Assembly (NCBI GenBank): GCA_019359355.1
Contig: JAHHHM010000001.1
Coordinates: 558,001 to 622,000 of the forward strand
Reading direction: 5' to 3'
Source: Microcoleus vaginatus WJT46-NPBG5
GTDB lineage: Bacteria > Cyanobacteriota > Cyanobacteriia > Cyanobacteriales > Oscillatoriaceae
DNA: 64,000 nt
Positions 19,969-31,552 of this stretch are shown piece after piece; the first letter of the stretch is position 1; every line of letters begins with the position of its first letter. The notes below the pieces were generated by a model, which saw only the letters and a program-made list of their open reading frames with translations, had not been told where the DNA came from and made no database searches. The translations under genes were made by a program, and so were the position numbers.

Positions 19969-20160
19969 AAAGGTTCTTGCCAAAAGCCCGTACAGTTGCC
20001 CTTTGTCACCGTTCAGTGACAGTTCTGGCGTGATATCCTTGGGGCTGCTGAAATTGGGTTTTCGAGGTCAAACTCGAAACATTTATGATATTTGTCGCTG
20101 AGCCGAAGTGTTTTCGCCTTCGGAGTTTGATCTCAAAGGTGTGTGGGAGTGGAAAAAAAC

Positions 20161-22617
20161 GTGAACAAAATGCGGATACCTCCGGTATGGGTGGCAATTG
20201 TGACGGCTTCAGCCACCCTGAGTTTATCGAACCCCGTTAGTGGGCAAACCATCAGCTTCACACAGTCTAATTCTGAACTGGCAGACTTAATGCCGGCACA
20301 GCCTGAAACTGGGGGGGCACTGGGCAACCCAGAAGGGATAGGTGATTTGTGGCAATTGATCGGCCAAGCAGAACCCCAGGACCCTAGTAGCCCAAGCGTT
20401 TCTGGAGAACTGACTGCGGCTGAGGTTCTTGAACCAGTTGCCGTATCAGCGCTAGAGTTGCCGGTTCAAAATACTCCCGACTCCGGAAAAGAAAACGTGC
20501 CGGCACAGGGGCACAAAAACACAGAACGGAGAATAAGCTCCCCATCCAGAATCCTTAATCTCTCGACCCCGCAGAGTACATGGGCGGCTATGTCCGCATT
20601 AGAGTCCATTGCCCAGACGCCCCCATCTCCTGAACCCGGGGCGGGTGAGGAAAACCCAGACGCTGCGCCAACTCTGCCGGCACCTGAGGAAACTGCGCCC
20701 ACGCCGACTCCCTCTGCACCTGAGGAAACTGCACCCACGCCAACTCCCTCTGCACCTGAGCAGACAGCCCCACCCGCGCCGGGACCCGTTCCAACACCCA
20801 CCAGTGATCGCTGCCCCGATCCCAACGCGCCGCAAGTGCTAGTCGCAGAGGTCGTCGTTAGCGGTGTGGAAGGAGAGCTGCAAGATAAAATTTACCAAGC
20901 CATTCGCACTCAGCCCGGTCGCACCACAAATCGATGCCAATTGCAAGAAGATGTGAACGCCATCTTTGCCACCGGCTTCTTCGGCGCAGTCGATTATCAG
21001 CCAGAGGATACCCCCTTAGGCGTGCGGGTGACCTTTGCGGTACAGCAGAACCCCGTATTGCGGAATGTGACGGTGAATGTTGTCCCTGTCGGCGAAGGCC
21101 AACAAGTAGTGCCCCAAAGCGTGATTGACACCATCTTTGGCGAGCAGTACGGCGAAATTCTCAACCTGCGCCGGTTTCAAGAAGGCGTCAAACAATTAAA
21201 TAAGTGGTATCAAGACAACGGCTACATCTTGGCTCAGGTCGTTAACGCCTCACAAGTCGATGCCCAAGGCACTGTCACCTTGCAAGTAGCCGAAGGGATC
21301 ATTGAAGATATCCAAGTCCGCTTCCTCACAGAAGAAGGCGAGACAACCGACGATAAAGGCAACCCCGTTGACGGACGTACCCGCGAATTCATCATCACGC
21401 GGGAAATGCAGCTCCAAGCAGGGGACGTGCTCAATCGAGATACCCTGGTTTCAGACTTGCAGCGAGTATTTGGTTTGGGCATCTTTGAAAAAGTCGAACC
21501 CTCACTAAATCCAGGCCAAGATCCGCGAAAAGTCTTGGTGGTTCTCGATATCACCGAAAGAAACACCGGCTCTGTCGCGGCGGGTGCTGGGATCAGTTCC
21601 GCCACAGGGCTATTTGGCACCCTCAGTTATCAAGAGCAAAACTTAGGGGGAAACAACCAAAAATTAGGTGCCCAGTTGCAAGTCGGTGAACGCGCGTTAC
21701 TCTTCGACGTAAACTTCACAGATCCCTGGATTGCCGGTGACCCTTACCGCACCTCTTATACCGTCAATGGCTTCAGACGCCGGTCCATTTCTTTGATCTA
21801 CACCGGCGGCGAAGACCAAGTCTATCTTCCCGATGGAGATCGCCCGCGTCTTCTGCGTTTGGGTGGCGGCGTCACCTTTAATCGCCCTCTAGGGCCAGAC
21901 CCCCTAAATGCCGATTGGCAGGCATCCTTGGGCTTGCAGTACCAACGAATTACCATCCGCAATTCCGATGGCGACATCAGCCCCGAAGATGAGCTGGGGA
22001 ATGACTTGAGCTTCAGTGGCGACGGCAAAGACGACCTGACAACATTGCAGTTTGGACTTGTGCGGGATCTGCGCGACGACCGCGCAAAACCCACCCGAGG
22101 GTCTGTTTTGCGTTTTGGAACGGAGCAGTCTGTGCCCATTGGTAAAGGCAGCATCTTACTCAATCGTCTACGGGGCAGCTATAGCTACTACATTCCCGTT
22201 AACTACGTTCGCTTTTCCGAAGGGCCACAGACATTAGCTTTTAATGTTCAAGCCGGCACAGTGGTTGGTGATCTGCCCCCCTACGAAGCGTTTGCTCTAG
22301 GTGGCAGTAACTCAGTGCGGGGTTATGACGAAGGCGACTTGGGTAGCGGTCGCAGTTTTATTCAAGCCACTGCCGAGTATCGCTTCCCAATTTTTGCGAT
22401 TGTAGGCGGGGCGCTGTTTGCCGATTTTGGCACCGACCTCGGCACAGGATCTTCTGTACCGGGCAACCCGGCAGGGGTACGAGACAAGCCAGGGAGTGGC
22501 TTTGGCTACGGTCTTGGTGTTCGCATCAATTCTCCTTTAGGCCCGATCCGCGTGGATTATGGCTTTAATGATGAAGGAGAGGGCCGCTTTCACTTTGGAA
22601 TTGGAGAAAGATTTTAA
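20161..22617 (+). CDS. omp85: Omp85/BamA-family outer membrane assembly protein
   Basis: From GTG 20161 (or ATG 20170) the protein opens with a signal peptide (MRIPPVWVAIVTASATLSLS...VSG). A long Pro-rich linker follows with repeats of PEETAPTPTPSA. POTRA domains come next, starting near VLVAEVVVSGVEGELQDKIY and continuing through DNGYILAQVVNASQVDAQG and AGDVLNRDTLVSDLQRVFG. The C-terminal barrel runs from about ITERNTGSVAAGAGISSATG to the last strand RFHFGIGERF, ending in aromatic Phe as Omp85 proteins do; it includes LGGSNSVRGYDEGDLGSGRS, the VRGY/F motif of the L6 loop. It should insert beta-barrels into the outer membrane. It heads the cluster with lpxC-fabZ-lpxA-lpxB. Confidence 0.95.
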   Translation: MNKMRIPPVWVAIVTASATLSLSNPVSGQTISFTQSNSELADLMPAQPETGGALGNPEGIGDLWQLIGQAEPQDPSSPSVSGELTAAEVLEPVAVSALELPVQNTPDSGKENVPAQGHKNTERRISSPSRILNLSTPQSTWAAMSALESIAQTPPSPEPGAGEENPDAAPTLPAPEETAPTPTPSAPEETAPTPTPSAPEQTAPPAPGPVPTPTSDRCPDPNAPQVLVAEVVVSGVEGELQDKIYQAIRTQPGRTTNRCQLQEDVNAIFATGFFGAVDYQPEDTPLGVRVTFAVQQNPVLRNVTVNVVPVGEGQQVVPQSVIDTIFGEQYGEILNLRRFQEGVKQLNKWYQDNGYILAQVVNASQVDAQGTVTLQVAEGIIEDIQVRFLTEEGETTDDKGNPVDGRTREFIITREMQLQAGDVLNRDTLVSDLQRVFGLGIFEKVEPSLNPGQDPRKVLVVLDITERNTGSVAAGAGISSATGLFGTLSYQEQNLGGNNQKLGAQLQVGERALLFDVNFTDPWIAGDPYRTSYTVNGFRRRSISLIYTGGEDQVYLPDGDRPRLLRLGGGVTFNRPLGPDPLNADWQASLGLQYQRITIRNSDGDISPEDELGNDLSFSGDGKDDLTTLQFGLVRDLRDDRAKPTRGSVLRFGTEQSVPIGKGSILLNRLRGSYSYYIPVNYVRFSEGPQTLAFNVQAGTVVGDLPPYEAFALGGSNSVRGYDEGDLGSGRSFIQATAEYRFPIFAIVGGALFADFGTDLGTGSSVPGNPAGVRDKPGSGFGYGLGVRINSPLGPIRVDYGFNDEGEGRFHFGIGERF

Positions 22618-22656
22618 GGTCTCCAGTGAGAAGTCAAAAATGAGATGTCGTGAAGC

Positions 22657-23532
22657 ATGAGTATTTCTTTAACTGAGAACTCAGAAATGGGGACTGGGCA
22701 CTCCATTCAGGCACCGTTTGATCTGTCGGGTGTAGGACTGCACACCGGCACTCAAACTCAAGTCAGAGTCCTGCCGGCTTCACGCCATGAAGGGCGCTAT
22801 TTTGTGCGGGTGGATCTGGCCGGCTCTCCTGTCATCCCCGCCCGCGTCGAGTTTGTGCGCCAAACTACCCTTTCTACAGAACTTGGCAATGAAGACGCCT
22901 GTGTGCGAACGGTCGAACACCTGTTAGCCGCTTTGGCGGCACAAGGAGTTGATAGCGCCAGAATCGAGATCAATGGCCCAGAAGTGCCGCTGCTAGATGG
23001 CTCAGCTCATCCGTGGGTAGAGGCGATCAATTCTGTGGGGGTTGTGGGAGAAAATGACCCAACCTTTATTTCTAACGCCCCAATCCTGCAAGAGCCGGTT
23101 TGGGTGCATCAAGGAGATGCCTTTGTCGCAGCGCTGCCGGCCCCGCAAACGCGCTTCACCTACGGCATAGACTTTGATTTGCCGGCAATTGGTCAGCAGT
23201 GGTATAGCTGGACACCGGCAACCGAGCGCTTCGCCACCGAAATCGCGCCGGCTCGAACCTTTGGCTTTGCCGCCCAAATCGAGCATCTGCGTTCACAGGG
23301 TTTAATTAAAGGCGGGAGCTTAGATAATGCCCTTGTCTGCGACGTCAGCGGGTGGCTAAATCCACCACTAAGATTTGCAAATGAACCAGTGCGTCATAAA
23401 ATCTTAGACTTAGTAGGAGATATCAGCTTGTTGGGAGCTTTTCCCTCAGCTCACTTTTTAGCCTACAAAGCAAGTCACAAATTGCACATACAGCTTGCCC
23501 GGTTGCTGGCTCAGTCGCATTCGGGATTTTAG
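22657..23532 (+). CDS. lpxC: UDP-3-O-acyl-N-acetylglucosamine deacetylase
   Basis: The 291-aa zinc amidase catalyses the committed deacetylation in lipid A synthesis. Family motifs are seen in order: [11 protein letters not shown] near the start, [17 protein letters not shown] with the zinc-ligand His, [38 protein letters not shown] with the family Phe, and [16 protein letters not shown] with the second His and Asp. It begins 39 bases after omp85 and ends with a TAG stop at normal length, so amber is a true stop codon in this genome. Cyanobacterial lipid A is simplified, but the early Lpx steps are retained. Confidence 0.97.
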
Positions 23533-23557
23533 ATATGGTAATGTCCAGATTCATCCC

Positions 23558-23590
23558 CAATCTAAAATCTACAATCTAAAATCCAAAATC
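23558..23590 (+). repeat. Short tandem repeat of the AATCTAAA type
   Basis: Heptamer-like units (CAATCTAAAATCTACAATC and continuation) lie between lpxC and fabZ. Related stretches occur at 41026-41047, about 49465-49530 and 59105-59190, always between genes. This matches the STRR sequences known from filamentous cyanobacteria. Confidence 0.7.
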
Positions 23591-23601
23591 AATATCTACT
23601 C

Positions 23602-24144
23602 ATGTCCACCCTGACTGATCTTAATTCCAATCACTCCTCTGCCCCTGATTCGGCTCAGCATGAACCGGCCAGCGAGGCTGCACAGAGCGTTTCGGTGCCG
23701 GCATCACCCAAAACTGTGTTCAACATTGAAGAAATTCATAAACTTCTCCCCCACCGCTATCCTTTTTCCCTGGTGGATCGGATTATTGACTATGTCCCGG
23801 AAAAAATGGCTGTCGGGATTAAAAACGTCAGCATCAACGAACCCCATTTTCAGGGACATTTCCCAGGCCGTCCGATCATGCCAGGAGTGCTGATTGTGGA
23901 AGCAATGGCACAAGTTGGCGGGGTTGTGATGACGCAACTGCCCAATCTGCCACCCGGATTGTTTATGTTTGCCGGCATTGATAAAGTCAGGTTCCGCAGA
24001 CCTGTCGTACCCGGAGATCAGCTGGTGATGACAGTAGAACTGATCTGCGTCAAAGGCCGCCGGTTCGCTAAAATGCAGGGCCGTGCTGAAGTAGATGGCC
24101 AGCGGGTTACAGAAGGCGAACTATTGTTCTCCCTGGTGGACTGA
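23602..24144 (+). CDS. fabZ: 3-hydroxyacyl-ACP dehydratase FabZ
   Basis: The 180-aa protein has a variable Ser/Ala-rich leader of about 40 residues, then the FabZ hot-dog domain. Motifs are [17 protein letters not shown], with the catalytic His of PHRYPF, and [20 protein letters not shown], with the catalytic Glu in LIVEAMAQ. It dehydrates 3-hydroxyacyl-ACP in fatty acid synthesis, and the same acyl-ACP pool feeds LpxA next door. It is 69 bases after lpxC. The leader is longer than usual, and a later start is possible, but no Met occurs before the domain. Confidence 0.97.
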
Positions 24145-24241
24145 AAACACTGTTAATTGATCGGTCGTCAGTGGTAAGGGAAAAGTGAGGCTGCCTTCGT
24201 TGGCGCAACTCACTCATCGCTTCTAAAGACAACTGACCACT

Positions 24242-24310
24242 GTACGGGCGGGCGCAAGCAGACAATTTTTGCTTAATTCCAGACAACGTATAAACAAACC
24301 CCGCCCCTAC
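24242..24310. repeat. Short inverted-repeat element, copy 2
   Basis: GTACGGGCGGG (24242-24252) pairs with CCCGCCCCTAC (24300-24310) at 10 of 11 positions. The arms match those of the element at 19906-19968. It lies between fabZ and lpxA. Confidence 0.5.
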
Positions 24311-24333
24311 CAACTGACAACTGACAACTGACA
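24311..24333 (+). repeat. CAACTGA tandem repeat before lpxA
   Basis: Three and a half direct units of CAACTGA end just before the lpxA ATG. The same short array lies before sqdX (43048-43066), and related degenerate units are at about 39468-39500. Confidence 0.75.
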
Positions 24334-24334
24334 A

Positions 24335-25150
24335 ATGAAGACTTTAATTCATCCCACCGCTGTCATTCATCCCGGCGCTCAACTGCACCCGACAGTGCAG
24401 GTGGGACCTTACGCAGTCATTGGGGATCTCGTAAAAGTTGGCCCGGAAACGACGATTGGTGCCCATGTCGTCATTGAAGGGAAAACGGAAATTGGTGCTC
24501 GCAATCAAATTTTTCCAGGTGCCGCTATCGGGTTGGAACCTCAGGATCTTAAATATGATGGGTCCTTGAGTTGCGTAAAAATCGGAGACGACAACCGGCT
24601 GCGTGAGTATGTGACAGTTAACCGCGCCACGGGTGCCGGTGAAACGACGACGATTGGCAATAACAACCTGCTCATGGCTTACGTTCATGTGGCCCACAAC
24701 TGTGAGATCGAAAACGGGGTCGTAATTGCCAATGCGGTGTCCCTAGCAGGCCATGTCCATATTGAATCTCGCGCTACGATTGGGGGCGTTGGAGGTATTC
24801 ATCAGTTTGTCCATATCGGGCGATTGTCGATGATCGGAGGTGTGGCCCGGATTGTTCAGGATGTGCCGCCTTATATGCTCATTGAGGGCAACCCATCACG
24901 GGTGCGAACGCTGAACTCGCTTGGCCTGAAGCGGGCCGGTTTGACGGAAACTGATCGCAGTTATCTTAAGAAAGCATTCCGAATTATTTACCGTTCTGGA
25001 CTGACACTAAACGAAGCCCTAGAACAGCTAGATTTATTCCCCGAAAACGAATACGTGCAACATTTGCGCCGGTTCCTGCAACTTTCTCAAATGAAAGGCC
25101 GGCGCGGGCCAATGCCGGGCCGGCGTCTTCACATGAGAGGTGAGGAGTGA
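24335..25150 (+). CDS. lpxA: UDP-N-acetylglucosamine acyltransferase
   Basis: The 271-aa protein transfers a 3-hydroxyacyl chain from ACP to UDP-GlcNAc, the first lipid A step. The N-terminal two-thirds is a left-handed beta helix of hexapeptide repeats (IHPTAVIHPGAQLHPTVQVG and onward), with the catalytic His in NNLLMAYVHVAHNCEIEN and the G(G)VGGIHQFVHIGRLSMIGG segment. A helical C-terminal domain follows (LKRAGLTETDRSYLKKAFRI). Its stop overlaps the lpxB start, which indicates coupled translation. It has a slightly long basic tail (MKGRRGPMPGRRLHMRGEE). Confidence 0.97.
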   Translation: MKTLIHPTAVIHPGAQLHPTVQVGPYAVIGDLVKVGPETTIGAHVVIEGKTEIGARNQIFPGAAIGLEPQDLKYDGSLSCVKIGDDNRLREYVTVNRATGAGETTTIGNNNLLMAYVHVAHNCEIENGVVIANAVSLAGHVHIESRATIGGVGGIHQFVHIGRLSMIGGVARIVQDVPPYMLIEGNPSRVRTLNSLGLKRAGLTETDRSYLKKAFRIIYRSGLTLNEALEQLDLFPENEYVQHLRRFLQLSQMKGRRGPMPGRRLHMRGEE

Positions 25151-26400
25151 GGAATGCCAAAACAGAGGGGCAGATGGGCGAAGCATCATCGGAAAATATC
25201 GTATTGAATTTGCCCCTACCTCCGAAGACTCTCTCACCGTTGCGAATTTTTATCAGCACCGGCGAGGTGTCGGGTGATTTGCAAGGGTCTTTGCTAATAG
25301 AGGCTTTGCACCGGCAAGCGAATGCGACAGGCATCAAATTAGAAATTGTGGCGCTGGGGGGGGAGCGCATGGCACAGGCCGGCGCAACGCTGTTAGGCAA
25401 TACTAGCGCCATCGGTTCTGTCGGGCTTTTGGAATCTTTACCCTACATTTTGCCTACCCTTCAAGTTCAGCGTCGCGCGAAGCGATACCTGCGGGAAAAT
25501 CCCCCCGATTTAGTCGTACTGATTGACTATATGGGTCCTAATCTGGCCATCGGCAGCTATGTAAAACAGCATTTACCGACTGTGCCGGTGGTGTATTACA
25601 TTGCGCCGCAGATGTGGGTTTGGTCGCCTTTCCCGCGCTATACCGAGCAAATTGTCAGTGTCACAGACCGGCTGCTGGCGATTTTTCCAGAGGAGGCACG
25701 TTATTTTCAACAGCAAGGGGCAAAGGTAACCTGGGTGGGTCATCCGTTGGTTGATCGCTTACAGACATTTCCTTTGCGTGAACAAGCCAGGGCTAATTTG
25801 GGGGTTGACAAAGAAGCGATTGCGATTGCTCTATTGCCGGCATCTCGTCAGCAAGAGGTGCGTTACCTATTGCCGGCAATCTGTGAAGCAGCCCAGCAAA
25901 TTCAGGAGAAATTGCCGCAAGCTCATTTCTGGATTCCCCTGTCTCTGGAGAAGTTCAGACGCCCCATAGAACAAGCGATTGAGCATTACGGGTTACGGGC
26001 GACTTTAGTTACCAGTCAGTCTCAGGACGTGCTGGCAGCGGCGGATCTAGCGATCGCTAAATCGGGTACGGTTAATTTAGAAATTGCTTTATTAAATGTG
26101 CCGTTGGTGGTGCTTTACCGAGTCCATCCCTTCACCTACTGGGTTGCCCGCCGACTATTCAATTTTTCGATTCCCTTTATGTCACCGCCTAATTTGGTGC
26201 AAATGCAACCAATTGTCCCAGAGTTGCTGCAAGAGCAAGCAACACCGGCAAACATTGTCAGGGAAGCTTTAGAACTTTTACTGGATGAAGGCCGGCGTCA
26301 GCAAACTCTGAAAGCCTACCAGGAAATGCGCTCCAACCTGGGAGACGTGGGAGTGTGCGATCGCGCAGCTCAATCTATTCTGCAGATGCTCTCAAAATAA
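25147..26400 (+). CDS. lpxB: Lipid-A-disaccharide synthase
   Basis: The 417-aa glycosyltransferase joins UDP-2,3-diacylglucosamine and lipid X. It starts with GTG at 25147, overlapping the lpxA stop (GTGA); ATG 25174 is an alternative. The conserved domain opens at LRIFISTGEVSGDLQGSLLI and continues with PDLVVLIDYMGPNLAIGSYV, YYIAPQMWVWSPFP, VTWVGHPLVDRLQ and the late motif ADLAIAKSGTVNLEIALLNV. All family blocks are present. It completes the Omp85-lpx operon; lpxD, which LpxB's pathway also needs, is not in the window. Confidence 0.97.
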   Translation: MRNAKTEGQMGEASSENIVLNLPLPPKTLSPLRIFISTGEVSGDLQGSLLIEALHRQANATGIKLEIVALGGERMAQAGATLLGNTSAIGSVGLLESLPYILPTLQVQRRAKRYLRENPPDLVVLIDYMGPNLAIGSYVKQHLPTVPVVYYIAPQMWVWSPFPRYTEQIVSVTDRLLAIFPEEARYFQQQGAKVTWVGHPLVDRLQTFPLREQARANLGVDKEAIAIALLPASRQQEVRYLLPAICEAAQQIQEKLPQAHFWIPLSLEKFRRPIEQAIEHYGLRATLVTSQSQDVLAAADLAIAKSGTVNLEIALLNVPLVVLYRVHPFTYWVARRLFNFSIPFMSPPNLVQMQPIVPELLQEQATPANIVREALELLLDEGRRQQTLKAYQEMRSNLGDVGVCDRAAQSILQMLSK

Positions 26401-26461
26401 AAGAATTCTTAACTTTTCAAATTGATTTTTTAACTTTTAATGGGAAGCAACCCCGTCTGCA

Positions 26462-27805
26462 TTGTCACGGCTAATCTTCAATGTGACCAAAATTTTAAAG
26501 CCCAAGTCTCAATACCATTCTGATCGGCGACCCCTTGCAGTCGATTTATTTGCAGGTGCCGGTGGGTTTTCCCTAGCGGTTGAGCAAGCCGGCTTTGATG
26601 TCCTAACAGCAGTAGAGGTTGACTCGGTTCACGCAGCAGTTTATACGTTCAATTTCCCGTACACAGAGGTTCTGTGCGCTAATATCTCCACTCTGTCGAG
26701 TCTAGTGATTGCAGATAGCGCAGCGCAAAGTTGGGCGTCATTGCCGGTTGCGGAAAATCAGCGGCAGTCATCGGCTTGGGATGGTGAGATTGATTTGGTA
26801 ATTGGCGGGCCACCTTCTCAAGGGTTCGCCATTATGGGCAAAGGGGTTATTGAGGATGAGCGGAATGATTTCGTGTTTGAGTTCGCACGGGTGGTGTGCG
26901 AATTGCAACCGCGATATTTCATTATGGAGAATGTACCGAGTCTGGTAACAGACCAATACACAGATTTTTTAGAACGGCTGATTTCGCAGTTGGAAGCAGC
27001 GGGATATAAAATTACGCTGCCGATGCAAGTCTTGAATGCAGCGGATTTTGGCGTCCCGCAAGACCGGCAGCGGATGTTTTTGCTGGGGTCTCGTTGCGGT
27101 CAAGTTCTGTTACCTTATCCAGAACCCCTTATAGATCGTAAGGTGACGGTAAGGGATGCGATCGCAGATTTACCAGATGTGGATGAGTTTCCTGAATTGC
27201 TAGATACCGACGAGTTGCTGCTATCGGAGGCGCAACTGAAGGCTTTGGAAGATGGGGCAAGTGAGTATGTGCAATCCCTGCGGGAGTTGGTTCGCGATCA
27301 GGAAGATTGCGCTTATCACCGGCGATGGAACCGGCAGCTTTTAACCGGCTGCCTACGAACCGCACACACTGCTGATTGTGTACGGCGATTTCAGGAAACG
27401 CTGATGGGGAAGGTGGAAAATAACAGCCGGTTGCGTCGCTTAGATATGGACGGACTGTGTAGCCCTTTGCGTGCCGGTACCGGCAGAGAAGGAGGCCGGC
27501 ATACGTCCCCGCGTCCAATCCATCCTTTGCACCCCAGAGTGATTACTGTGCGCGAGGCGGCGCGGTTACATTCATTTCCAGATTGGTTTCGTTTCCACAC
27601 CACGAAGTGGCATGGGTTTCGGCAGGTGGGTAACGCGCTGCCACCCCTGTTAGGACGTGCCGTTGCCGGTGAAGTGATTAAGGCGCTGGAAGTTAAGCCC
27701 CAGGTTTCAGATGTGCCGGTTGATTTGGGAAACCCAGATTTGCTAAGGATGAGTCCGTCCCTAGCCAATTACTATTGGGAAGCCCATTTGCTGAAGACGA
27801 TGTGA
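26462..27805 (+). CDS. C5-cytosine DNA methyltransferase homologue with Ser at the catalytic Cys
   Basis: The 447-aa protein has all usual motifs of a C5-cytosine methyltransferase: motif I DLFAGAGGFSLAVEQAGFDV (SAM binding, residues 28-47), motif VI ENVPSL (156-161), motif VIII QDRQRMF (200-206) and the C-terminal GFRQVGNALPP (about 385). Motif IV reads GGPPSQGFA: the nucleophilic Cys is Ser119 (codon TCT, 26816-26818). That residue forms the covalent bond to cytosine, so normal catalysis is not expected. A long target-recognition region lies between. It begins at TTG 26462, 62 bases after lpxB, and no restriction partner is adjacent. The frame is intact, which suggests selection for a non-catalytic role, a very recent mutation, or a sequencing error. 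Confidence 0.9.
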   Translation: MSRLIFNVTKILKPKSQYHSDRRPLAVDLFAGAGGFSLAVEQAGFDVLTAVEVDSVHAAVYTFNFPYTEVLCANISTLSSLVIADSAAQSWASLPVAENQRQSSAWDGEIDLVIGGPPSQGFAIMGKGVIEDERNDFVFEFARVVCELQPRYFIMENVPSLVTDQYTDFLERLISQLEAAGYKITLPMQVLNAADFGVPQDRQRMFLLGSRCGQVLLPYPEPLIDRKVTVRDAIADLPDVDEFPELLDTDELLLSEAQLKALEDGASEYVQSLRELVRDQEDCAYHRRWNRQLLTGCLRTAHTADCVRRFQETLMGKVENNSRLRRLDMDGLCSPLRAGTGREGGRHTSPRPIHPLHPRVITVREAARLHSFPDWFRFHTTKWHGFRQVGNALPPLLGRAVAGEVIKALEVKPQVSDVPVDLGNPDLLRMSPSLANYYWEAHLLKTM

Positions 27806-28558: not shown

Positions 28559-31552
28559 ATGGAACCGAACGATACCTTACCAGGCGACACCTTACCAGGC
28601 GACACCTTACCAGGCGACACCTTACCAGGCGACACCAATGATAGTCTCGGCGGAGCCACCCCCACCGAGCCAACACCCACCGACGATAGTCTCATGAGCA
28701 CCACCGGCGAACCAACAACCACCACCGAGCCGGTTGACGAGACAGCCGTTATGACCTTAGACGGCAGCACCGGCACCGACACAACAGAAGGTAGCACCGG
28801 CACCACCACCTTAGAGGGCGGCACAGTCGACGATAGCAACATTGCTACCACCGGCACCGGCACCCCCACCTTAGAGGGCGGCAGCACCGGCAGCGAGGGG
28901 GGCGAAGACATAATAGACGGCGGTACGCCTGAGAGCACAGGCATTGGTGGTGATACCCAAAACGATGGCACCGGGGGTGAACCCACCACTCCAACAAGCA
29001 CCAGCTCCCCATTTGAAACTGGAACGTTCCTAGTTGGAGAAACCGGCGAAGTCAGCTTCGACTTTAAGTGGGACGGCGGCAGCTATGAAGGCGAAGTCGG
29101 TATCTTTAACCTGGAAGGAATGGAAGCGTATGAACCAGGCTCTGAAGAGTTTATCAAAGAAGCGGCTAATCGGGCGAAGAGCAACTCTGCTGAAATGGGT
29201 CATGTCGTTATTTCCGACGCATCAGAAGGAGCTGAGTCTGAAGGAGTCTTGCCTTGGGAAGAAAACTACAACGAAGGAGAATACGCAGGCCCTAAAACCT
29301 TTGAAATGACACCTGGCAGTACATTTGGTGTCTTCCTAGTGCCCAATGGCACAGTGCAAGAAGTCTATGACGATCCAACCGTTGTCGACAACAGGCCCTT
29401 ATTCTCAATGACCACAGCCAACCCTGATGATGCCTTCCAGGTTGGCCAGCTTGCGGATGTCACCGGCGCAGGCAGTGTCTTTGTCATGGAAGACGTGTAT
29501 GTTGGTAACGAAAACTCCGATAAAGACTACAACGACCTCATCTTCAAAGTCACTGGTGCTGTTGGAGAAGCAGCCTCCATTGATGAATATATTGACCCTG
29601 ATAAAGATTGGCGCGAAGAGGAAGTCGGTCAAACTTTCATCGAAGACCTCAAAGCCGAAGAACCTGTAGAGGGCGGCGAAGGCGAAGAACCTGTCGGTGG
29701 CGAAGGCGAAGAACCTACCGGCGGTGAAGGCGAAGAACCTGTCGGCGGTGGCAGTGGCGGTGGGATTCCTCGTCCAACCTTCCCAACTGGCGGTGGTGCA
29801 ACCGGCGGTGAATTCCCAGGCGGTGGCGCAACCGGCGGTGAATTCCCAGGCGGTGGTGCAACCGGCGGTGAGTTCCCAGGCGGCGGCAACGGCGGCGGTG
29901 GCGAAGGCGATGAGACCATCGGCGGTGGCGAAGACGATGAGACCATCGAAGGCGGAGCCGGCAATGACACCCTAAATTGTGGTGGTGGCGACGACACGGC
30001 TACCGGCGGCGGTGGCGACGACGTGATCGACGGTGAGGAAGGTGACGACGATCTCGACGGTGAAGCCGGCAACGATACAGTCATCGGTGGCGTTGGCAAC
30101 GATCTCGCTTCCGGCGGTGACGGCGACGATGCAGTAGAAGGCGGCGAAGGTGACGACGATCTCGACGGTGGAGTCGGCAATGACACCTGTGAAGGTGGAG
30201 CTGGCAGTGACACTATCGTGGGTGCCGAAGGCGACGACGCTGTTGATGCTGGCGAAGGCGACGACGCTGTTGATGCTGGCGAAGGCGACGACGCTGTTGA
30301 TGCTGGCGAAGGCGACGACGCTGTTGATGCTGGCGAAGGCGACGACGCTGTTGATGCTGGCGAAGGCGATGACGCTGTTGATGCTGGCGAAGGCGATGAC
30401 GTTGTTGATGGCGCTGAAGGCGATGACGTTGTTGATGGCGCTGAAGGCGATGACGTTGTTGATGGTGGCATCGGTAACGACTCACTTGAATGTGGCACCG
30501 GCGATGACATCGGCACAGGTGGAGAAGGCGATGACGTTGTTGAAGGTGGCGACGGCGACGATAACGCCAGTGGAGATGAAGGCGACGACGTAATCGAGGG
30601 TGAAGGCGGCTATGACACCTGCCTAGGCGGAGAAGGCTCTGACACGATCGTCACTGGCGACGGCAACGATGTCGGCACTGGCGATGAGGGTGAAGACGTA
30701 ATCGACGCTGGCACCGGCGATGACATCGTTGAAGGTGGAGGCGACAATGACACAGTCCTCGGTGGCGAAGGCCACGACACCACTATGGGTGATGAGGGTA
30801 ACGACAGCGTTACGGGTGATGCCGGTTTAGATACCTGCCTCGGCGGTGGCGGTAGTGACACTATCACTGGTGGCGATGGTGGCGACGCTGGCTACGGAAA
30901 CGAGGGCGACGATGCTATCGATGGTGGCACAGGTAACGACTCCATCTATGGCGGTCTAGACAACGACACTGTCATGGCTGGCGAAGGCGAAGACTTGAGT
31001 TCTGGCGACTCGGGTAATGACATGATTGACGGTTACATGGGTTCTGACACTGCCCTGGGCGGTGAAGGCGTTGACTCAATCGGTGGCGGCGACGGTCATG
31101 ACGTCATCAATGGCAACACCGAAGACGACGCTATCAACGGCAACACCGGCAACGACAGTCTGTATGGTGGCCAAGGTAACGACATTATCCGGGGCGGTCA
31201 AGATGCTGACTGGATCACTGGTGACATTGGTGATGACGTAGTCTACGGTGACATGGGTAATGACATCCTCATCGGTGGCGCTGGCGCAGACGTGCTGATC
31301 GGTGGTGAAGGTAACGATGTCTTCACACTCGAGTCCGATATGGGTGCTGACACGGTCGTTGACTTCGTCATAGGTCAAGATACCTTCAGCTTGTCTGCCG
31401 GTTTAACCTTCGAGGGGTTAACGATTGTTCAAGGCAGCGACGCGCAAGCTAACGACACCTTGATCAAGATTGCCGGCAGTGATGAACTGGTAGCTACCCT
31501 CACAGGTGTGCAAGCCAGCTCAATCACCAGCGCTGATTTCACTCTGATCTAA
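28559..31552 (+). CDS. Large secreted RTX-repeat calcium-binding protein with DUF4114-like domain
   Basis: The 997-aa acidic protein begins with four TLPGD repeats and has no signal peptide. A Thr/Gly-rich linker leads to a DUF4114-like domain (about residues 154-332, GTFLVGETGEVSFDFKWDGG to DKDYNDLIFKVTG). A Gly/Glu-rich spacer (PGGGATGGEF repeats) follows, then hemolysin-type nonapeptides (GGxGxDxxx) from about residue 460 to 920, including GGAGNDTLNCGGGDD. The C-terminus (about 920-997) has the ADVLIGGEGNDVFTLES and later non-repeat tail typical of type I secretion substrates. It probably binds Ca2+ and is exported to the cell surface or sheath. It is monocistronic and ends before a strong terminator. 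No ABC exporter or MFP gene is in the window. Confidence 0.9.
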   Translation: MEPNDTLPGDTLPGDTLPGDTLPGDTNDSLGGATPTEPTPTDDSLMSTTGEPTTTTEPVDETAVMTLDGSTGTDTTEGSTGTTTLEGGTVDDSNIATTGTGTPTLEGGSTGSEGGEDIIDGGTPESTGIGGDTQNDGTGGEPTTPTSTSSPFETGTFLVGETGEVSFDFKWDGGSYEGEVGIFNLEGMEAYEPGSEEFIKEAANRAKSNSAEMGHVVISDASEGAESEGVLPWEENYNEGEYAGPKTFEMTPGSTFGVFLVPNGTVQEVYDDPTVVDNRPLFSMTTANPDDAFQVGQLADVTGAGSVFVMEDVYVGNENSDKDYNDLIFKVTGAVGEAASIDEYIDPDKDWREEEVGQTFIEDLKAEEPVEGGEGEEPVGGEGEEPTGGEGEEPVGGGSGGGIPRPTFPTGGGATGGEFPGGGATGGEFPGGGATGGEFPGGGNGGGGEGDETIGGGEDDETIEGGAGNDTLNCGGGDDTATGGGGDDVIDGEEGDDDLDGEAGNDTVIGGVGNDLASGGDGDDAVEGGEGDDDLDGGVGNDTCEGGAGSDTIVGAEGDDAVDAGEGDDAVDAGEGDDAVDAGEGDDAVDAGEGDDAVDAGEGDDAVDAGEGDDVVDGAEGDDVVDGAEGDDVVDGGIGNDSLECGTGDDIGTGGEGDDVVEGGDGDDNASGDEGDDVIEGEGGYDTCLGGEGSDTIVTGDGNDVGTGDEGEDVIDAGTGDDIVEGGGDNDTVLGGEGHDTTMGDEGNDSVTGDAGLDTCLGGGGSDTITGGDGGDAGYGNEGDDAIDGGTGNDSIYGGLDNDTVMAGEGEDLSSGDSGNDMIDGYMGSDTALGGEGVDSIGGGDGHDVINGNTEDDAINGNTGNDSLYGGQGNDIIRGGQDADWITGDIGDDVVYGDMGNDILIGGAGADVLIGGEGNDVFTLESDMGADTVVDFVIGQDTFSLSAGLTFEGLTIVQGSDAQANDTLIKIAGSDELVATLTGVQASSITSADFTLI
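28571..28630 (+). repeat. Four 15-base tandem repeats at the RTX N-terminus
   Basis: Units of ACCTTACCAGGCGAC repeat four times with almost no difference and code TLPGD. Confidence 0.95.
30227..30469 (+). repeat. Nine 27-base tandem repeats in the RTX domain
   Basis: Nine units of 27 bases code EGDDAVDAG (first six) or EGDDVVDGA/G (last three). The first five are nearly identical in bases, so they arose by recent duplication. Other RTX repeats around them differ in sequence. This is coding and not a CRISPR array: there are no variable spacers. Confidence 0.95.

Follow-up and report, generated by a model that had tools for sequence, protein, structure and literature searches.

What remains of a C5-cytosine methyltransferase when its catalytic residue has been replaced, and why would a genome keep it? 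In this enzyme family, the Cys of motif IV serves as the nucleophile. The window, by which we mean the whole stretch of 64,000 nucleotides analysed here, carries on its forward strand (26462..27805) a methyltransferase homologue of 447 codons in which Ser takes the place of that Cys. The gene represents a known family of enzymes in a variant form that is real, natural and well kept. We give about an even chance (0.5) to the reading that it is an old, retained homologue of an orphan CGATCG methyltransferase of the DmtC type, dead or feeble as an enzyme, which would still bind DNA.

The gene and its active site

The frame at 26462-27805 is open and complete, with a TTG start and 447 residues. 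A family profile search gives one match to PF00145 (E 4.6e-57), covering residues 27-406 and profile positions 4-323 of 324; this match along the domain places the protein among the C5-cytosine methyltransferase homologues. The exact start is not certain: 454 codons are open, GTG at codon 8 (26483) is a possible alternative, and the Oscillatoria copies described below, which bear on this point, align with the window protein from residue 7 only. Upstream on the same strand (20143..26400) lie an Omp85-like gene, lpxC, fabZ, lpxA and lpxB, named from a reading of the sequence, in an order that is conserved in relatives. Downstream, 28559-31552 can be read as encoding a large acidic protein built of repeats, some of them GGxGxD-like; it is longer or otherwise arranged in the two congeners discussed below.

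A preliminary description of this DNA had reported an intact frame with motifs I, VI, VIII and X and a motif IV reading GGPPSQGFA, with Ser119 encoded by TCT, and both statements are borne out. Motif I (FAGAGGFS, for SAM), the ENV of motif VI (FIMENVPS, 26918..26941) and the QxRxR of motif VIII (FGVPQDRQRMF, 27047..27079) are present, as is motif X (HGFRQVGNALPP; the feature at 27611..27649 reads HGFRQVGNALPPL), all on the forward strand. What an active enzyme would have and this protein lacks is the catalytic Cys of motif IV (26804..26830, forward strand): codon 119 (26816..26818, with C at 26817) is TCT, and the corresponding residue is Cys in 66/66 aligned Cys-type rows. The replacement does not stand alone. 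Residue 123 is Ala in every Ser copy and Ser in all 66 Cys-type rows; residue 160 is Ser or Thr in Ser copies, Asn in Ala copies and Gly in the 66 rows; residue 393 is Leu in both Ser and Ala copies and Val in the 66 rows; and Oscillatoria adds N391T. All five positions are invariant across the Cys-type rows, and residues 119, 160 and 393 are altered alike in Ser and Ala copies. The recognition region with motif IX (residues 207-383, 27080..27610, forward strand) keeps 49/51 conserved columns; a structure model of the protein is weak in this region.

Distribution of Ser, Ala and Cys copies

The Ser form is shared by five more species-level genomes in two genera, all reading PPSQGFA and all with the TCT codon. 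Two are congeners of the window's genome (G001 and G002; the window's genome is G000), with proteins 95-96% identical to that of the window. The other three belong to a second genus of the same family, Oscillatoria princeps RMCB-10 (G003), Oscillatoria sp. PCC 10802 (G006) and Oscillatoria sp. Prado101 (G007), and are 70-71% identical. The preliminary description had left it to be seen whether Cys or Ser is common among cyanobacterial relatives. A DNA pattern for GGPPSQGF, which covers the TCN serine codons and leaves out AGY, occurs in 6/388 genomes of the order, namely these three of the window's genus and three of the second, and, among 292 genomes sampled across the phylum, in that of the window only; the matching Cys pattern occurs in 51/60 relatives. 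At the same locus, two genomes of another family (G043 and G065) carry Ala, in the form PPAEGFS. The motif IV survey covers the 58 listed places except G188, G093, G260, G150 and G077. Elsewhere among the relatives, one clade-B methyltransferase (L030, in G019) has two in-frame TAG codons and is probably a broken copy.

The TCT codon is one base from a Cys codon, which is what a sequencing error or a decaying pseudogene might also display. A sequencing error is ruled out, short of a shared artefact, by the same codon in five other assemblies, and Ala at this position in two more, intact frames and the low dN/dS given below likewise speak against error or decay; we regard this explanation as very improbable. 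A single base change at 26817, as the preliminary description proposed, does fit the codons. It is not a recent change, being shared by two genera and accompanied by S123A, G160S/T and V393L. The Ser substitution is real, old and kept.

History of the gene

A quick tree of 77 rows comprises a clade A of 53 (45 Cys, 6 Ser and 2 Ala), a clade B of 21 Cys rows, two outgroup rows and a second copy of G043 that falls outside; the Cys copy of G045 was left out. The Ser and Ala copies form one subclade among Cys enzymes (SH-aLRT 99), and the grouping persists with support 100/99 in a careful tree of 44 of the 77 rows from which the active-site columns were removed. Gene order agrees with this placement. 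The order Omp85-lpxC-fabZ-lpxA-lpxB-methyltransferase is common to the six Ser genomes and G043, and is also that around the Cys copies in G024 and G051. A same-strand lpxB precedes 8/8 Ser or Ala copies, 17/45 Cys rows of clade A (26 have no lpxB in the stretch examined and two too little sequence) and 2/21 clade-B rows. Tree place and gene order together make the window gene a member of clade A, the lpxB-linked orphan methyltransferases of this order.

Ser and Ala copies depart alike from the Cys type at residues 160 and 393, which favours a single history of the gene. In the lpxB tree, G043, of the Ala lineage, does not fall beside the Ser genomes, a point against our preferred reading, so that one loss of Cys, two losses or a transfer may lie behind the pattern; that tree does not decide for a joint history of lpxB and the methyltransferase gene in the Ala lineage.

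Selection and the pattern of change

The Ser-type gene, judged by its substitution rates, is under purifying selection. Values of dN/dS are 0.068, 0.107 and 0.071 for the Ser pairs within the window's genus, 0.13-0.22 within the second genus and 0.13-0.15 between the two genera, the last with dS above 1; 12 pairs of Cys clade-A genes give 0.12-0.34. Neutral decay is disfavoured by these values. The gene combines a lost catalytic residue with retention by selection, the pair of features expected of an inactive partner protein of the Dnmt3L/DRM3 kind.

The Ser copies retain 105, and the Ala copies 109, of the 117 columns that are at least 95% conserved in the 66 Cys rows; motif I is kept at 8/8 and the recognition region with motif IX at 49/51 (Ser) and 50/51 (Ala). 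Changes concentrate in motifs IV, VI and X, with motif I and the recognition region nearly intact. On this wider set, the comparison of motifs IV, VI and X with the rest gives a two-sided Fisher p of 0.009 for the Ala copies and a non-significant 0.069 for all Ser copies. A leave-out control used columns at least 98.5% conserved (75-77 columns, of which motifs IV, VI and X contribute 19). Six columns are broken by the second genus and six by the Ala lineage, in each case five of them among the 19 (one-sided Fisher p 0.003 in both cases); the window's genus breaks eight, four of them among the 19, which is not significant (one-sided p 0.11). Eleven Cys groups break 0-2 columns each and none of the 19.

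The preliminary description expected a protein that binds SAM and DNA but forms no covalent intermediate. The intact motif I, the conserved recognition region and the further active-site changes fit a SAM- and DNA-binding protein without normal catalysis, in which the covalent intermediate may be absent. The main rival to a catalytically dead DNA-binding protein is a slow but genuine methyltransferase, with the Ser hydroxyl as nucleophile and low-level methylation sufficient for its role. The residue is Ser in 6/6 genomes with no mixture, the protein retains motifs I, VI (ENV) and VIII, and, to judge by the title of Gabbara et al. 1995, partial activity is reported for a cytosine methyltransferase whose active-site Cys is replaced by Ser. 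Against such an enzyme, the sister copies have Ala, and S123A, G160S/T, V393L and the N391T of Oscillatoria all depart from residues that are invariant in the 66 Cys-type rows. We consider it rather unlikely, if the most serious of the alternatives.

HIP1 and the probable target

In published genomes, the presence of DmtC of Anabaena PCC 7120 and M.Ssp6803I (slr0214), orphan m5C methyltransferases of CGATCG, tracks the highly iterated palindrome HIP1 (GCGATCGC), according to PMC4390886. A similar relation appears here. Among genomes that encode a Cys enzyme of clade A or clade B but lack a Ser copy, the sampled DNA is mostly HIP1-rich (G048 has two sites in 8 kb), and that of G014, which has neither enzyme, is not, with three sites in 60 kb. 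The correlation, which has exceptions, speaks for CGATCG as the ancestral target. In five Ser genomes a Cys clade-B copy goes with little HIP1, and G036, G037 and G054 are CGATCG-rich (in small samples of 7, 29 and 10 kb, some of these genomes being incomplete) without a strong methyltransferase match; both observations count against our preferred reading.

The Ser genomes have largely exchanged HIP1 for another palindrome. The window's genome has 532 HIP1 sites, about ten times a reversed-pattern control (56), compared with 8,681 in G043 and 6,828 in G024. In 144 kb sampled from it, GCCGGC occurs at 9.7x, ACCGGC at 7.2x and GCCGGT at 6.9x the expectation from base composition; ACCGGT occurs once, GGCGCC not at all, and CGATCG at 0.8x. 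The switch from HIP1 to rCCGGy is found in all six Ser genomes and in G004, and is absent in another family member, G005. Elhai had reported it earlier in Oscillatoria PCC 10802 (PMC4390886), and it now spans three genera of the family. G004, in which neither clade has a strong match, has no CGATCG in 60 kb sampled (L118-L120) and 81 HIP1 sites genome-wide. No general tie between loss of Cys and the switch was found: the Ala carriers are HIP1-rich (127x and 187x expectation), and G004 has switched with no strong match to the gene. Another methyltransferase of the window's genome, a Cys enzyme with PPCPDFS (G000:C34:111773-112861; L099, L103), is present in each of the seven family members that have the alternative palindrome and not in G005, and in 13/60 relatives in all; by this correlation it is a candidate for the rCCGGy (DmtD-like) enzyme.

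CGATCG is not over-represented in 5/6 Ser-genome samples (0.8-1.5x; G007 reaches 1.9x on 31 kb). This would be expected if the protein had been put to a new use away from CGATCG, by a changed DNA target, an RNA target or a role in protein binding. The recognition region, which retains nearly all of its conserved columns (49/51), argues the other way, and we find a new use of this kind improbable.

A local enrichment of CGATCG is seen around the gene itself. Three of the ten sites in the window fall at 26051-27159, in the end of lpxB and the methyltransferase gene, at places partly shared with other Ser genomes, and in G001 the gene lies within the densest 2-kb CGATCG stretch of 400 kb. With the amino acid sequence allowed for, the gene ranks 9/86 in G000 (p = 0.24), 2/274 in G001 (0.002), 3/51 in G002 (0.12), 1/45 in G003 (0.013), 2/65 in G006 (0.020) and 1/21 in G007 (0.039), in genomes that are not independent. 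CGATCG density in lpxB is non-significant in all six Ser-genome samples (p 0.06-0.35). Autoregulation through this cluster was considered and, once the amino acid sequence and the non-independence of the genomes are taken into account, is a weak lead only.

Cys paralogues in the carriers

A Cys paralogue stands beside the Ser or Ala copy in 7/8 carriers. The second copy belongs to clade B in G001, G002, G003, G006 and G007, and is more distant, with PPCQGF, in G043 and G065. Seven Cys clade-A genomes placed in the tree (G010, G018, G021, G024, G034, G048 and G051) have no second strong copy. In G192 and in G065, the second methyltransferase copy is followed, in the same orientation, by another C5-methyltransferase homologue (L210, L216).

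The remaining carrier is the window's genome, in whose assembly a search found no Cys paralogue, a result that counts against our preferred reading. The 5.1-kb neighbourhood of the Cys copy in G001 is matched at 93% in G002. Because this whole neighbourhood has no counterpart in the window's genome, an assembly gap and a true loss are indistinguishable, and loss of the paralogue is not claimed.

The distribution of paralogues bears on a special form of our preferred reading, in which the dead protein would associate with the Cys paralogue to stimulate or direct it. Dnmt3L and DRM3, catalytically mutated paralogues required for normal methylation (PMC2965745), would be precedents, and the Cys paralogue in seven of eight carriers, with no second strong copy in the seven Cys genomes, is in keeping with it. 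The paralogue was not seen in the window's genome, possibly through a gap. Bacterial C5-methyltransferases mostly act alone. Such a partnership seems doubtful to us.

A proposed role

The reading that we prefer, a retained DNA-binding homologue with little or no activity, can be put as follows. The gene would be an lpxB-linked orphan C5-methyltransferase of clade A, most likely of the CGATCG-specific DmtC/M.Ssp6803I type. Its catalytic Cys may have been lost in an ancestor that it has in common with Oscillatoria and a further lineage, or else along a related line, and the protein may since have been kept for DNA binding with no or very weak methylation. With motif I and the recognition region intact, it would bind SAM or SAH and its old site; the base would probably be flipped and the normal chemistry not completed. 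It would then act by occupying sites, either tuning an active DmtC-type paralogue or serving as a local DNA-bound factor. We infer the binding to DNA and SAM, the lack of activity and the regulatory role from sequence comparison. The CGATCG target is inferred from Elhai 2015 and the HIP1 correlation. The role of 'reader or regulator' suggested in the preliminary description is a plausible conjecture.

Cys has been lost naturally in two cyanobacterial families with the gene kept under selection, which offers a ready-made test of what orphan methyltransferases do beyond methylation. Since the highly iterated palindrome, too, differs in most carriers, comparison of carriers with relatives could show whether the upkeep of HIP1 needs CGATCG methylation, occupancy or neither.

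Comparison with known systems

Among the closest known systems are DmtC and M.Ssp6803I. The window gene resembles them as a widespread orphan C5-methyltransferase of its order that tracks HIP1 in most samples, a likeness drawn from published description rather than sequence comparison; those enzymes are active, whereas the window protein has no Cys. Of the solved structures, PDB 3g7u, a prophage methyltransferase of E. coli, gives the best sequence match (E 9.4e-70), with an alignment that extends through the recognition region. It differs in having PPCQGF and, according to its title, in being prophage-borne. No natural Cys-less bacterial C5-methyltransferase is described among the matches listed from the open-licence literature, including that on cyanobacterial methylation.

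Laboratory mutants resemble it in the active site. The M.HaeIII C71S mutant, Cys to Ser, has been crystallised with DNA, as the title of PDB 3ubt states, and M.EcoRII C186A forms tight, non-covalent complexes with DNA and blocks forks (PMC4437897). They are altered at the same position, to Ser or Ala, as the Ser and Ala copies; they are laboratory-made, however, whereas the Ser copies are natural and long kept.

Evolutionary parallels may be Dnmt3L of mammals and DRM3 of plants, C5-methyltransferase paralogues with mutated catalytic sites that selection has retained alongside an active one (PMC2965745). They are eukaryotic and of other families, and the partner role shown for them would be a guess for the Ser protein. 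A prokaryotic counterpart, in which DmtC, the HIP1-site enzyme, has given rise to a dead bacterial methyltransferase that controls an active paralogue, be it as its partner or by sequence-specific binding, is a tentative possibility to which we give somewhat more weight than to a slow Ser enzyme. If true, the two roles of the HIP1 enzyme, binding and methylating, would have been separated in nature.
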